From Candidatus Latescibacterota bacterium (GTDB lineage: Bacteria; JAAXHH01): a stretch of 64,000 nucleotides of DNA. Location: the NCBI GenBank assembly GCA_022822725.1, contig JAJEAN010000001.1:248001-312000 (forward strand), given 5' to 3'. The notes beneath the pieces were generated by a model. The model was not told the DNA's origin. It saw only the letters and a list, made by a program, of their open reading frames with translations, and ran no database searches. Numbering within the stretch: the first letter of the stretch is position 1; each line of letters opens with the position of its first letter. The position numbers were made by a program, and so were the translations under genes. Shown in pieces: positions 11,818-17,171 of this stretch.

Positions 11818-11845
11818 TTGACAGCCCCACGAAAGGTTTTATTAT
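11818..11845 (+). promoter_or_regulatory. Strong sigma70 promoter of the dtxR-family gene
   Basis: TTGACA (11818-11823), 16 bases, TATTAT (11840-11845). This is a full-consensus -35 and a 5/6 -10 on the plus strand, facing the metalloregulator gene. A longer open frame that begins at this TTG cannot be the real coding start because it overlaps the -35. Confidence 0.75.
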
Positions 11846-11849
11846 TCGA

Positions 11850-11868
11850 TGGCATATTTGATAAGCCA
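11850..11868. promoter_or_regulatory. Imperfect 19-bp palindrome, probable DtxR-family operator
   Basis: TGGCATATTTGATAAGCCA is an inverted repeat with outer arms TGGC/GCCA and inner TAT/ATA. It sits just downstream of the -10, over the expected transcription start. Size and placement match DtxR/IdeR/MntR-type operators, which are about 19 bp and overlap the promoter, and suggest autoregulation by the adjacent gene. The sequence itself differs from the diphtheria tox box. Confidence 0.6.
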
Positions 11869-11922
11869 AACTTTTTATTGCGCCGGCAACACGATGGTTG
11901 CCACAACGAATCGGACAGTGCA

Positions 11923-12453
11923 ATGGATGTCTGGAGAGAGTTTGAGCACAACGAGATCACGCACAGCGGAGCGCACTACCTGATGACGGTCCAGCAGTTG
12001 ATCGAGGACCAGGGATACGCCCGCGTATCGGATGTCGCCCGGGAGATGCACATCACACCCGGCAGCGCGTCGATCATGATCAAGTCGCTCCGGGAGAAGG
12101 GATACCTCGAGGAGGACCGGAACCGGTTCCTCAAGATGTCGGAAGAGGGAAACCGGCTGGCGCAGTCCGTATGGTCACACCGGCAGATTCTCATCGCCTT
12201 TCTCAAGAGTGTCCTGCATATCGACGCGGAACAGGCAGAAATCGACGCGTGCAAGATCGAGCACCTGATCAGTACGAAGACGGGGGAACGGTTGTTGCTG
12301 TTCCTGCAGTTCCTTCTGTCGGACGATCCCCACGGCAAGGCGTTCCTCAAGTCCTACTGGGACGCCAACGTGCTGTCGATCTGCGATTTGGAGTCCTGCG
12401 CGGTATGCGAGGAAGTGGGCGAATGCCTGGTAATCCGATCGGAGTCGGCGTGA
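11923..12453 (+). CDS. DtxR-family iron-dependent repressor with Cys-rich tail
   Basis: This 176-residue metalloregulator has a winged helix (about 25-75, ARVSDVAREMHITPGSASIM), a dimerisation region with His86, and the metal-site motif C110-x2-E113-H114. DtxR and IdeR use Cys at this position while MntR uses Glu, so an iron sensor is indicated. There is no C-terminal SH3 domain. Instead the tail has four cysteines, C154-x4-C159-x2-C162-x5-C168, which is unusual for the family. ATG at 11923 is chosen because homology begins there and the promoter and operator precede it. It lies upstream of feoA, PepSY and feoB, so it probably controls ferrous-iron uptake. Confidence 0.85.
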   Translation: MDVWREFEHNEITHSGAHYLMTVQQLIEDQGYARVSDVAREMHITPGSASIMIKSLREKGYLEEDRNRFLKMSEEGNRLAQSVWSHRQILIAFLKSVLHIDAEQAEIDACKIEHLISTKTGERLLLFLQFLLSDDPHGKAFLKSYWDANVLSICDLESCAVCEEVGECLVIRSESA

Positions 12454-12507: not shown

Positions 12508-12614
12508 AGAAAAAGGGACTATCGCACCATGGCCCGGCAAGCCCGGCGATAGTCCCTGGGCAGGACAGGTATAACTGTCCCTGAGGGCGATACGGAGGTA
12601 CGCGGCCCTCTAAT
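12508..12614 (-). ncRNA. Candidate small RNA 1 (about 105 nt), opposite strand before feoA
   Basis: A minus-strand unit bounded by a sigma70 promoter (TTGACC-17-TATACT, 12620-12648) and an intrinsic terminator whose 11-12 bp stem ends in five T. Two further stems lie inside: GAGGGC/GCCCTC and GGACAG/CTGTCC with a six-base loop. A second unit with the same architecture lies at 13045-13142. The two share CCAGGGACTATCG and the 3' arm CGATAGTCC. The pair next to the loop is C-G here and G-C in the other copy, a compensatory change. No convincing protein frame explains it. I recognise no known RNA family. Confidence 0.55.
12510..12557 (-). terminator. Intrinsic terminator of candidate small RNA 1
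   Basis: Read on the minus strand, arm GGGACTATCGC pairs with GCGATAGTCCC (plus an A-T pair), followed by TTTTT. The T-tract exists only in the minus-strand reading, which sets the orientation of the unit. Confidence 0.65.
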
Positions 12615-12619
12615 GCTAT

Positions 12620-12648
12620 AGTATACGGAAATCGCCATGGAAGGTCAA
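12620..12648 (-). promoter_or_regulatory. Sigma70 promoter of candidate small RNA 1
   Basis: On the minus strand TTGACC (12643-12648), exactly 17 bases, then TATACT (12620-12625). It points away from feoA. The expected start is about 12614. Confidence 0.6.
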
Positions 12649-12760
12649 TACCACAAAGAAATCGTTTTGAATCCAGCGAAAGGGGATACTGCCTATACGT
12701 AAAACACCTTTCAGTTCCGTGGCAAGTTCCGGCATCAGACCATCTGACGCGAGATAACCC

Positions 12761-13024
12761 ATGCATTCCGAACTCTTTACCAGCACGCAAGCACAGACGA
12801 TTCGCCTGGATGAACTAAAGCCCGGCGAAAAAGGAACGATTCGACAAATCAAGGGCACGGCGGGGGAAGAAGTGCACCTGATGGAACTGGGATTGCTTCC
12901 CGGCACAACCGTCGAATTGATTAAACGCGCCCCCATGGGCGATCCGATCGAGATACGCGTTCGGAGCTACCACCTGTCCATTCGTTGTGCCGAGGCCCGT
13001 TCGGTCGTGGTGGAAAGAAATTGA
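12761..13024 (+). CDS. feoA: Ferrous iron transport protein A
   Basis: An 87-residue cytoplasmic SH3-like protein that assists FeoB. The FeoA pattern is clear: KPGEKGTIRQIKG, then LMELGLLPGTTVELIKRAPMGDPIEIRV and a final strand with the SIRCAEA variant. The domain starts about 15 residues in, so this is a stand-alone FeoA and not a FeoA-FeoB fusion. It sits between the DtxR-family regulator and the PepSY gene, about 1.9 kb before feoB. Both flanking gaps carry an opposite-strand candidate small RNA. The ribosome site before the ATG is weak. Confidence 0.9.
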   Translation: MHSELFTSTQAQTIRLDELKPGEKGTIRQIKGTAGEEVHLMELGLLPGTTVELIKRAPMGDPIEIRVRSYHLSIRCAEARSVVVERN

Positions 13025-13044
13025 GCTTAAGAGGGATGTAACAT

Positions 13045-13090
13045 AAAAAAGGACTATCGGTTCGGCTGGCCGGCTCTCCCCGATAGTCCC
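13045..13090 (-). terminator. Intrinsic terminator of candidate small RNA 2
   Basis: On the minus strand GGACTATCGG pairs with CCGATAGTCC (extended by a G-U and an A-U pair) and is followed by TTTTTT. It has the same geometry as the copy at 12510-12557. Confidence 0.65.
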
Positions 13091-13142
13091 TGGACCAGGG
13101 GGATTCGTACACGTTGCGGGTACTATCCGATCCCGGCCTGTA
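13045..13142 (-). ncRNA. Candidate small RNA 2 (about 97 nt), opposite strand after feoA
   Basis: Second copy of the unit seen at 12508-12614. It has a sigma70 promoter TTGACA-17-TATATT (13148-13176) and a terminator stem of 10 bp or more followed by six T, with the same CCAGGGACTATCG block. The 5' half differs from copy 1. An upstream segment GATAGTACCC could pair with the terminator 5' arm (one bulge), and CCCTG-GTC-CAGGG can form a competing hairpin, so alternative folds are possible. Function unknown; proximity to iron genes suggests an iron-linked regulator. Confidence 0.55.
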
Positions 13143-13147
13143 TTTTG

Positions 13148-13176
13148 AATATACGCCCCCTGGCAACCGCTGTCAA
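13148..13176 (-). promoter_or_regulatory. Sigma70 promoter of candidate small RNA 2
   Basis: On the minus strand TTGACA (13171-13176), 17 bases, TATATT (13148-13153). Spacing is identical to the promoter of small RNA 1. The -35 lies about 27 bases before the start of the plus-strand PepSY gene. Confidence 0.65.
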
Positions 13177-13202: not shown

Positions 13203-14168
13203 ATGATTCGAAAAACCATCTTCTGGATCCACCTCTCGTCGGGCGTCGTCGCCGGCATCGTCATCCTCATCATGTCCGTGACCGGCGTGCTGCTCACCTT
13301 CCAGAGCCAGATCGTCGACTACGCCAACCGGGCATATTCCACGGTCCATCCTCCCCATCCCGGCGCCGCGCGCATGGATCTCGACGCGGTGCTCGCGGCG
13401 GTCCGAAGTGCCGAGACCGAAGCGGAGCCCACCTCCGTTACCATACGTCCCGATCCGGCCGAGGCGTACGTCGTACGATTCGGCCGCGCGAAAACCGTCT
13501 TTGTCGATCCCTATACCGGGGATGTCCGGGGCGAAGGCAACATCGCCGTCCGCGATTTCCTTCGGGAGATCGTCTACTGGCACAGATGGTTCGGCGCGGA
13601 GGGTGATAACCGGACGGTCGCCCGGGCGGTTACGGGCGCCTGCAACCTGGCGTTCTTCCTGCTGACCATCACGGGGCTGTACATCTGGTGGCCCCGAAAA
13701 TGGACCTTTGCGGCCTTCAAGTCGGTCTTTGTGCCAAATCTCAAAGTCAAGGGGAAGGCCAGGGACTTCAACTGGCACAATTCCATCGGCATCTGGTGCC
13801 TTCCCGCCCTTTTCCTGATCTCGTTGAGCGGCGTGGTCATATCCTATAGGTGGGCAGGCGACCTGGTCTATACGCTTACAGGCACGGAACCGCCTCAAGG
13901 AGCCGCGCAGTCCGCGTCAAAACCGGAAAACCCCGGGGAAGAACCCGCACCGCTGCCGGTCGCGCCCTCCGAATCCTTTCTGGACGCGGCGCGAAGGCAG
14001 GTCCCGGAGTGGGCGTACATCACGCTGAACCTGCCCCAGGAAGGTGCGGAAACCGCCACGCTGACGGTATCTGAAATGGATAACCGCATTCCGCTGACCC
14101 GTTCGACCCTCACGGTTTCCACATCGGACGCGGGGGGTAGTCGAATGGGTACCGTTCACCAGTCTTAA
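13203..14168 (+). CDS. PepSY-associated membrane protein, N-terminal part (frameshifted)
   Basis: An inner-membrane protein of the PepSY-TM (iron-regulated membrane protein) family, often found with siderophore or iron uptake genes. There is a first membrane helix at about residues 8-32, a periplasmic PepSY-like segment, WHRWFG, a second helix (NLAFFLLTITGLYIWWPRKW), and a third with NSIGIWCLPALFLISLSGVV. The frame ends at 14168 in sequence that no longer fits the family. One base out of frame, from the G-run at 14132-14137, it continues as VEWVPFTSLNMGRQL into the next open frame. The gene is thus broken by a single-base indel at a six-G run, real or technical. Total intact length would be about 402 residues. 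Confidence 0.8.
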   Translation: MIRKTIFWIHLSSGVVAGIVILIMSVTGVLLTFQSQIVDYANRAYSTVHPPHPGAARMDLDAVLAAVRSAETEAEPTSVTIRPDPAEAYVVRFGRAKTVFVDPYTGDVRGEGNIAVRDFLREIVYWHRWFGAEGDNRTVARAVTGACNLAFFLLTITGLYIWWPRKWTFAAFKSVFVPNLKVKGKARDFNWHNSIGIWCLPALFLISLSGVVISYRWAGDLVYTLTGTEPPQGAAQSASKPENPGEEPAPLPVAPSESFLDAARRQVPEWAYITLNLPQEGAETATLTVSEMDNRIPLTRSTLTVSTSDAGGSRMGTVHQS

Positions 14169-14169
14169 C

Positions 14170-14409
14170 ATGGGTCGGCAACTGCGCACCTGGCTACGCT
14201 GGATTCATACGGGCGAAGCGGCCGGTTGGTTCGGCCAGCTCATCGCGGGCGTGGCGTCGGCCGGCGCGGTGGTTCTCGTTTGGACGGGACTCTCGCTGGC
14301 ATGGAGACGTTTCCGCAGGTTCAACAAAACCCGGCAGAACACGGAATTGGCTACGAATCAAGTACCAGGAGAATCCGATGAAGAACCACACCTTGCTCGC
14401 ACAGGATGA
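14170..14409 (+). pseudogene. PepSY-associated membrane protein, C-terminal fragment
   Basis: The C-terminal end of the preceding gene in the next frame. It carries the conserved RQLRTWLRWIHTGEAAGWFG segment and the last membrane helix (LIAGVASAGAVVLVWTGLSL) with a basic WRRFRRF end. Ending at this basic segment plus a short tail is normal for the family. It has no credible ribosome site of its own, so it is expressed only if the frame is restored at 14132-14137. Confidence 0.7.
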
Positions 14410-14779: not shown

Positions 14780-14924
14780 GCGGCCAGCCTGGTCAGCCTG
14801 GTCAGCCTGCGCGCTTTGCTTTTTATTCCCTTTTTAGCCGTTCAGCGTTATATTGACCTGGTCTGGACGTGACGGTTTTTCCAACCCGATCGTGAACCGT
14901 TTCATTCTGAACCAATCCTTGGAC

Positions 14925-17171
14925 ATGGCCGAAACCACCGAAACATTCGCGGCACGTGAATCCGTGGTCGACGTGCTGCTCGTCGGCAACCCGAATACCG
15001 GCAAGACGTCCGTATTCAATTCCCTGACCGGGCTTCGCCAGAAAACGGGCAACTACCCCGGCGTGACCGTGGAGAAGAAGACAGGCATCGTGACGGGTCC
15101 GGACGGCGCCACGCTGCGTCTGCACGACATGCCCGGCATGTACAGCCTTACTCCGAAGTCCCTCGACGATTCCATCGCCCGTGAGGTACTGATCGGTGAA
15201 GCGGACGAGGACCTGGACGTCCGGCTCATCGTGGTCGTGGCCGATGCATCAAACCTCAACCGGAACCTCTACCTGGTCACCCAGCTCATCGACCTCGGTA
15301 TCCCCGTTGCCATCGCCATGAACATGATGGACAACGCCGTCAGCAGCGGCGTGCACATCGACCTGGACGCGCTCTCCGATCGCCTCAAGGTTCCGATCGT
15401 ACCTGTAGTCGCATCCCGTCAGCGGGGCATAGACGAATTGCGGAAGATGATGTTCGACCAGGTGGGACCGGCCCCGTCGGCTCCCGGATCGGCCGGAGAT
15501 ACCGGGGGCGAATCGATCGGAGATACCGAGGTGGGGCCGGCCCCGCCATCGCCCACGGTTTCCTTCGCCGAAAGGTTTCCGCGCAGGCGGCTGCTGGGCG
15601 GCCTCCTCGACGAAGCGCTCGCCCCCGCTGCGGCCTGGTTCGGAGAACATACGAACCTGAACGAGGTGGCGCAGACCTCGGAAGCGCTGCGCGTGACTTC
15701 GAGCGACCAGGCGCTGCAGACCTGGATGGAAGGTCGTCAGGATCCCTCTTGCAAGGAAGACCTGAAACGCATCGTGGAGCAGACGCGGGGCAGGCTGGAC
15801 GAATTGCAGGTCCCGTGGCATATGCTGGAGACCATCCTGCGGTATGACCAGATCGACGATCTCTATTCAAGGGTCGTGCGGGAGGACCGGGAAGCGCAGG
15901 CCAGCCTGAGTGTCCGGCTGGACCGCGCGTTCACCCACCGGATAGCCGGTCCGGTCATCGTCCTGGCCGTGTTCGCGCTGGTCTTCCAGTCCATATTCTC
16001 CTGGGCCGAAGCGCCCATGACGCTCATCGAGGACGGGATCGGCGCCCTGGGGGCCTTCGTCTACCAGTTCCTGCCGGAAGGCCTGGTGCGCGACCTGCTC
16101 GTAGACGGCGTCATCGCCGGCGTGGGCGCTGTGCTGGTCTTCCTCCCCCAGATCCTCTTTCTCTTCTTCTTCCTGGCTCTGCTTGAAGACACGGGTTACA
16201 TGGCCCGCGTCGCCTTCATCATGGACCGTTTCATGAAGAGCATGGGACTGTCCGGCCATTCGGTCATGCCGTTGCTGTCGTCTTTTGCCTGCGCCATACC
16301 TGGCATCATGGCGACCCGGACGATCTCGAGTTGGAAGGACCGTCTCATCACGATCATGATCGCGCCGCTGATGAGCTGCAGCGCCCGCCTGCCCGTGTAC
16401 ATCCTGCTGATCGGTGCGTTCTTTCCGTCCATGACGATATTAGGCGTATTCACGCTGCAGGGACTGATGCTGTTCACCATGTACATATTCGGGATCATCG
16501 TCGCCATAGGCGCCGCGCTGGTGTTCAAACAGTTGTTCATGAAGGATGCCGTGTCCACGAGTTTCGTCATGGAACTGCCGCCCTACCGGCTGCCTTCCCT
16601 CAAGTGGGTCCTGCTGCAGATGTTCGAACGGGCGAAGGTCTTCGTGACGGAGGCGGGCCAGATCATCCTCGCCATATCGGTCGTCCTCTGGTTCCTTGCC
16701 TCCTACCCGCAACCCGACGACTACGATTCCATGACGTCCAGGTCGCGCATACAGCAGAGTTACGCCGGCCAACTCGGCCAGTTGATCGAACCGGCCATCG
16801 AGCCGCTCGGATTCGACTGGAAAGTGGGCATCGGCCTGATCACTTCCTTCGTCGCACGGGAAGTGCTGGTCAGCACCATGGCCACGATCTATAACGTGGA
16901 GGAGGCCGACGAGACTTCGGTCGATCTCAGGTCGGCCCTGCAGGACGAGACGGACCCGGAAACGGGCGAGCGGGTATACACGCCGCTGGTCGCGGTGGCC
17001 CTCATGGTATTCTTCGCCCTGGCCTGCCAGTGCATGGCCACGGTCGCCATCGTGAAGCGGGAGACCAACGGCTGGAAATGGCCCATCGTCATGGTCCTGT
17101 ACATGACGGCCCTGGCCTACGTGGGGTCTTTCGTCGTCTACCAGGGGGGACGGCTCCTGGGATTCGTATAA
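14925..17171 (+). CDS. feoB: Ferrous iron transport GTPase-permease FeoB
   Basis: An inner-membrane Fe(II) transporter of about 748 residues. The N-terminal G domain shows G1 GNPNTGKT (21-28), G2 NYPGVT (43-48), G3 DMPG (68-71), G4 NMMD and G5 VASRQRG. Two Gate domains with the FeoB core follow (LEDTGYMARVAFIMDRFM, GHSVMPLLSSFACAIPGIMA, LMSCSARLPVY). ATG at 14925 places G1 near residue 21 as in other FeoB proteins; an in-frame TTG at 14853 would add 24 residues. A low-complexity linker with repeated SAGDTGGESIGDT-like words separates the G5 region from the helical domain. Confidence 0.95.
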   Translation: MAETTETFAARESVVDVLLVGNPNTGKTSVFNSLTGLRQKTGNYPGVTVEKKTGIVTGPDGATLRLHDMPGMYSLTPKSLDDSIAREVLIGEADEDLDVRLIVVVADASNLNRNLYLVTQLIDLGIPVAIAMNMMDNAVSSGVHIDLDALSDRLKVPIVPVVASRQRGIDELRKMMFDQVGPAPSAPGSAGDTGGESIGDTEVGPAPPSPTVSFAERFPRRRLLGGLLDEALAPAAAWFGEHTNLNEVAQTSEALRVTSSDQALQTWMEGRQDPSCKEDLKRIVEQTRGRLDELQVPWHMLETILRYDQIDDLYSRVVREDREAQASLSVRLDRAFTHRIAGPVIVLAVFALVFQSIFSWAEAPMTLIEDGIGALGAFVYQFLPEGLVRDLLVDGVIAGVGAVLVFLPQILFLFFFLALLEDTGYMARVAFIMDRFMKSMGLSGHSVMPLLSSFACAIPGIMATRTISSWKDRLITIMIAPLMSCSARLPVYILLIGAFFPSMTILGVFTLQGLMLFTMYIFGIIVAIGAALVFKQLFMKDAVSTSFVMELPPYRLPSLKWVLLQMFERAKVFVTEAGQIILAISVVLWFLASYPQPDDYDSMTSRSRIQQSYAGQLGQLIEPAIEPLGFDWKVGIGLITSFVAREVLVSTMATIYNVEEADETSVDLRSALQDETDPETGERVYTPLVAVALMVFFALACQCMATVAIVKRETNGWKWPIVMVLYMTALAYVGSFVVYQGGRLLGFV

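Follow-up and report, generated by a model that had tools for sequence, protein, structure and literature searches.

A sequence-only reading of the window (the whole 64,000-nucleotide stretch of DNA analyzed here, from a Candidatus Latescibacterota bacterium) placed two paralogous small RNA genes on the strand opposite feoA, and suggested that they are iron-linked regulatory RNAs, possibly of an undescribed family. Are these two units genuine RNA genes, how are they related to one another, and how might they act on the ferrous-iron operon in which they lie? From sequence comparisons, we conclude that the two, here termed RNA A and RNA B, are probably a real, undescribed small RNA pair of limited range, whose link to iron is one of location.

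Two minus-strand units flank feoA

The locus comprises the following features.

11818-11845, plus strand: dtxR promoter-like site, TTGACA-16-TATTAT (11/12), conserved in sister species
11857-11871, plus strand: putative DtxR operator TTTGATAAGCCAAAC, conserved, directly after the dtxR -10
11923-12453, plus strand: dtxR-type metal-dependent repressor, 176 aa, two domains (Pfam Fe_dep_repress, Fe_dep_repr_C)
12508-12613, minus strand: RNA A, about 105 nt, predicted start placed from the -10; fold z -4.0; hairpin 1 (12610-12583), hairpin 2 (12581-12562), terminator hairpin (12557-12514), then T run
12620-12648, minus strand: RNA A promoter, TTGACC-17-TATACT (-35 at 12648-12643, -10 at 12625-12620)
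12761-13024, plus strand: feoA (Pfam FeoA, E 9.7e-21)
13044-13141, minus strand: RNA B, about 98 nt, predicted start; fold z -3.1; 5' stem-loop (13138-13093), terminator hairpin (13091-13049), then T run
13148-13176, minus strand: RNA B promoter, TTGACA-17-TATATT (-35 at 13176-13171, -10 at 13153-13148)
13203-14409, plus strand: PepSY_TM gene in two frames (13203-14168, 14170-14409), Pfam PepSY_TM on both parts
14853-17171, plus strand: feoB (Pfam FeoB_N, Gate, FeoB_C)

Both units lie on the minus strand about 530 bp apart and occupy the two long gaps of the cluster, RNA A 3' of dtxR and RNA B between feoA and the PepSY gene. Each has the plan first described for it: a sigma70-type promoter with an exact 17-base spacer, a body of about 100 nt, and a hairpin followed by five or six T. 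Between 11.8 and 17.8 kb we found six promoter-like sites against 1.7 expected, the best of them being the A, B, and dtxR promoters. Both RNAs are compact and highly structured, with little unpaired sequence, and each folds with better energy than 200 of 200 dinucleotide shuffles.

The terminator stems are GGGACTATCGC/GCGATAGTCCC followed by TTTTT in RNA A, and GGACTATCGG/CCGATAGTCC followed by TTTTTT in RNA B; the pair next to the loop is C-G in A and G-C in B, as the earlier reading stated. Since the T run occurs on the minus strand only, we rejected a bidirectional terminator. The paired motif shared by the two hairpins is found at just two sites in the 3.8-Mb genome, those of A and B (a reversed-pattern control found none), and a dispersed repeat was rejected on this basis.

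The term "paralogous" holds for only part of each RNA. The 3' halves of A and B match better than any of 1000 shuffles and contain an identical 13-mer, CCAGGGACTATCG, but the 5' halves are unrelated (460 of 1000 shuffles as good) and the loops show no clear match (119 of 1000). Thus, the two RNAs appear to have a terminator hairpin and an overall plan in common, and the comparison does not support common descent of the whole RNAs.

Neither unit resembles a gene for a protein or for a known RNA family. The claim that no minus-strand protein frame explains the units needs one qualification: mechanical open reading frames do exist across the region (for example, 12921-13166). Among the copies compared, however, closed frames in RNA A never exceed three codons, and a 23-codon frame in RNA B is found in 5 of 11 copies and is missing from the others. 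With indels present and start codons absent or variable among copies, we rejected a minus-strand protein. Searches against Rfam gave no match at the gathering cut-off (the best score was 18.7 bits, with 51.2 needed) and no credible family for either RNA at E<=10, in line with their description as undescribed.

Promoters and hairpins are conserved in related genomes

A loss of promoters and stem from feoA loci of sister genomes would have counted against the RNA genes; we found both conserved, along with the terminators. TTGAC-17-TATAYT is kept in all 20 aligned promoters (10 A and 10 B). The RNA A promoter reads TTGACY-17-TATAYT in 10 of 10 copies from three genera, with a mostly variable spacer, and the RNA B promoter reads TTGACA-17-TATATT in 10 of 10 aligned copies, with CCAGGGG conserved within its spacer. 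In genomes that keep a divergent outer-membrane gene next to RNA A, the A spacer holds (G/A)CCAA, which could be part of the -35 element of that gene. Where the outer-membrane gene is lost, (G/A)CCAA is absent and the A promoter stays. This provides an internal control, indicating selection on the RNA promoter in its own right.

RNA A forms three hairpins in tandem. Across ten copies, 97.8% of cells are paired, in an alignment that was built with the model and is therefore biased toward the structure. Six pairs in three helices vary on both sides, a number matched by none of 500 shuffles, and the covariation signal vanishes when the partners are shifted by one to three columns. Four of these six pairs are already present in a MAFFT alignment of four sequences. 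One change is visible by eye: in the terminator of the G012 copy, A-U is replaced by G-C (GGGGCUAUCG/CGAUAGCCCC). The proposal that compensatory change maintains the stem is thus borne out for RNA A. RNA B is nearly invariant in sequence and has no two-sided changes, and its predicted 5' fold draws its support from folding energy.

In both RNAs, a G+C-rich terminator hairpin and T run are kept, the run being weak in the A copy of G006 (TTTA) and the B copy of G003 (TTTTAA). The terminator loops are strongly conserved, with CUUGCCGG shared by A of two genera and with RNA B kept over almost its whole sequence.

These data bear on a reading in which the hairpins serve the plus strand, as 3'-end or intercistronic stability elements of the dtxR and feoA mRNAs, with the promoters incidental. 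By sequence the stems can form on the plus strand too; yet the T run is exclusive to the minus strand, and minus-strand hexamers at an exact 17-bp spacing are kept in 20 copies with a largely variable spacer. We consider this reading very improbable.

RNA A is family-wide and RNA B is restricted to one genus

Eleven congeners of the window genome share its feoA, giving 12 genus genomes in all. The paired motif recurs in 11 sister species and in a second genus, and among the 16 genomes of our phylum set, RNA A and RNA B are confined to one family. Within the genus, RNA A is present in G000, G001, G002, G003, G006, G007, and G011, with a contig-end fragment in G009. Further copies lie in another named bin (L060) and in G013 and G012, which represent two additional genera. 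RNA A thus spans three genera, always immediately past dtxR even where the next gene differs. A model including the G012 copy found one copy per carrying genome and none in 368 genomes outside the phylum set.

RNA B was found in the genus only. With its model (R3) we detected it in 11 of the 12 genus genomes, where the only strong match lies beside feoA; no B-like RNA was found in other genera of the phylum set, including G012 and G013. The idea of a single family therefore gives way to two undescribed RNAs, A family-wide and B genus-only. At least one of the two is kept in all 12 genus genomes.

Outside the lineage, the hairpins returned by a collection-wide pattern scan were all symmetric or unrelated, and came from Firmicutes, Acinetobacter, and one gammaproteobacterial bin. 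In the named collection, motif-carrying contigs come from metagenome bins that were deposited as Candidatus Latescibacterota or Gemmatimonadetes/Gemmatimonadota, and in the case of G013 as "uncultured bacterium". Judging from isolate names, many of these bins come from sponges, and the lineage is uncultured and marine. As a separate observation, G015, from a sister family, carries a promoter-like TTGACT...GCCAAGGTATAC element downstream of dtxR (L099, around 2150-2190) with no recognisable RNA body.

Sense-strand signals point to a probable transcript across both RNAs

Of the sense promoter-like sites in the cluster, the one before dtxR is the best; the dtxR product has MntR as its nearest NCBIfam model, with a score under the cut-off. 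In the six congeners searched, a degenerate operator motif, TTTGNNWAGCCAAAC, occurs once per genome and always in the dtxR region. We found no good sense promoter in either gap of the window; with the best one at dtxR, a sense RNA running across A and B is likely. The putative operator motif is absent from the A and B promoters. For lack of an operator-like site there, we provisionally rejected direct control of A and B by DtxR, the operator itself being a prediction. The earlier suggestion that the RNAs are iron-linked accordingly stands for their conserved place beside dtxR and feoA, which is its sole basis; neither promoter has the putative operator, and no target was found.

A fuller version of the cluster has the order dtxR, RNA A, outer-membrane protein, apbE, FMN-binding protein, membrane protein, feoA, RNA B, PepSY, small protein, feoB; Pfam matched neither the outer-membrane nor the membrane protein, and both are named from a signal peptide and the look of their sequences. 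The four-gene block between RNA A and feoA (L074 2525-5878) may be a module for flavin-linked reduction or uptake of iron. It has been lost from the window genome and several congeners, and a remnant of its fourth gene appears to form the conserved feoA leader in the window genome. RNA A persists after deletion of this block in G000, G003, and G011. RNA B is missing in G006 and its promoter is lost in G007, two genomes without PepSY here, in which feoB directly follows feoA. The PepSY_TM gene of the window is split near a G run at about 14135, by a frameshift or a sequencing error; G001 has a single 412-aa frame (L074 6285-7523).

Position and synteny tentatively favor an antisense role

RNA A and RNA B very probably exist as RNAs, given their promoters, terminators, and conserved folds. 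By position, both are complementary to the intercistronic region that the presumed sense transcript would cross, and we tentatively favor a cis-antisense mode of action, to which we give somewhat less than even weight. In this model, the sense transcript would begin at dtxR and run across both gaps, co-transcribing the genes. Each RNA of about 100 nt would be made from its own promoter, and its intrinsic terminator would stop synthesis just short of running antisense into dtxR or feoA. Pairing with the complementary intercistronic mRNA could then cause transcription termination or RNase III cleavage in the gap, so that dtxR, feoA, and PepSY-feoB would be expressed at unequal levels.

Several observations favor the antisense reading. 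The position and orientation of the RNAs are constant, A past dtxR in three genera and B past feoA in 11 species; B or its promoter is lost exactly where PepSY is lost (G006, G007); and A outlives deletion of the divergent outer-membrane block. Moreover, Pfam models detected neither Hfq nor CsrA in seven genomes (controls were positive), and no recognisable ProQ was found in the genomes searched, whereas RNase III is present in the genomes searched. This complement fits antisense action better than Hfq-type action in trans, and we rejected both an Hfq- or ProQ-dependent small RNA and a CsrA sponge of the CsrB/RsmY type.

Other observations weaken it. G004, G005, G008, and G010 keep the dtxR-feoA junction without RNA A, and in genomes that carry the outer-membrane gene, including G015, a separate divergent promoter of that gene may overlap that of RNA A. 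Further, cis-antisense pairing would work with any loop sequence; that the terminator loops are conserved hints at a sequence-specific partner, either a target bound in trans or a protein.

Loop conservation beyond what the stem requires leaves room for a second reading, in which A and B act in trans as partly redundant, Hfq-independent small RNAs whose 3'-hairpin loops pair with distant iron mRNAs, much like PrrF1/PrrF2. Retention of RNA A after its neighbors were deleted fits this reading, as does the presence of at least one copy in 12 of 12 genus genomes, though among so few related genomes such retention has no statistical force. Action in trans, however, needs no fixed place beside dtxR or feoA; Hfq and ProQ were not found; and the A and B promoters carry no putative DtxR operator. 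Target prediction over the initiation regions of window genes was uninformative: locus genes were not outstanding, and PepSY ranks high as a target of RNA B only because RNA B overlaps its upstream region. We regard trans action as possible but doubtful.

A third reading takes A and B as protein-binding or scaffold RNAs, such as a sponge or a 6S-like RNA, that lie in the iron cluster by chance. Their compact, highly structured folds would suit such a role; against it stand the missing CsrA, the lack of a match to 6S or any other Rfam family, and synteny with the iron cluster in three genera, and we judge it improbable. Least credible to us is a conditional leader whose 5' domain senses a ligand and sets the choice between a stop at the hairpin and read-through antisense into dtxR or feoA. 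Direct reading shows that pre-terminator sequence can pair with the 5' arm of the terminator (GUCCU/GGGAC in A, CCCUG/CAGGG in B), but this alternative helix is short and seems much less stable than the terminator, and the 5' domain of A bears no relation to that of B. Returning to the antisense reading, an elaborated form of it, a DtxR-controlled feo operon with two dedicated gap antisense RNAs that tune its parts separately, their 5' domains possibly ligand-sensing, strikes us as unlikely.

Comparison with known iron-linked RNAs

We know of no feo operon with an RNA layer of iron uptake control, and of almost no small RNAs from uncultured phyla. IsrR of Synechocystis is a cis-antisense RNA to the iron-stress gene isiA; the proposed role of A and B is alike in this respect, but IsrR lies inside the coding region and A and B lie in gaps.

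The antisense reading is also favored by a precedent in the iron-transport operon fatDCBA-angRT of Vibrio anguillarum, where RNA-beta ends transcription inside the operon, such that upstream genes are expressed above downstream genes (PMC8383071); a further antisense RNA, RNA-alpha, is known from the same operon (PMC5524678). Like RNA-beta, A and B would be antisense RNAs within an iron-transport operon. They differ from it in operon and phylum, in forming a pair within a single cluster, in that both have conserved intrinsic terminators, and in that their mechanism is a predicted one. PrrF1 and PrrF2 of Pseudomonas aeruginosa are likewise two neighboring small RNA genes tied to iron; they are arranged in tandem, expressed in low iron, and target other mRNAs (PMC10597452). 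Unlike them, A and B have different 5' halves, flank feoA about 530 bp apart, and lack a putative DtxR operator, in a host in which Hfq was not found.

RNA A and RNA B have a well-defined anatomy, with covariation in A, and their position within a ferrous-iron operon can be tested; the lineage that carries them is known mostly from sponge samples. Should the antisense model be true, they would add RNA control to feo, and would show how small RNA regulation may run without recognisable Hfq, CsrA, or ProQ.

One further element lies at RNA B: an inverted repeat, CCAGGGGG/CCCCCTGG (window 13092-13099 and 13159-13166), links the RNA with its promoter spacer. The repeat is kept in most of the genus, and could form a hairpin on the sense strand or serve as a pair of operators.
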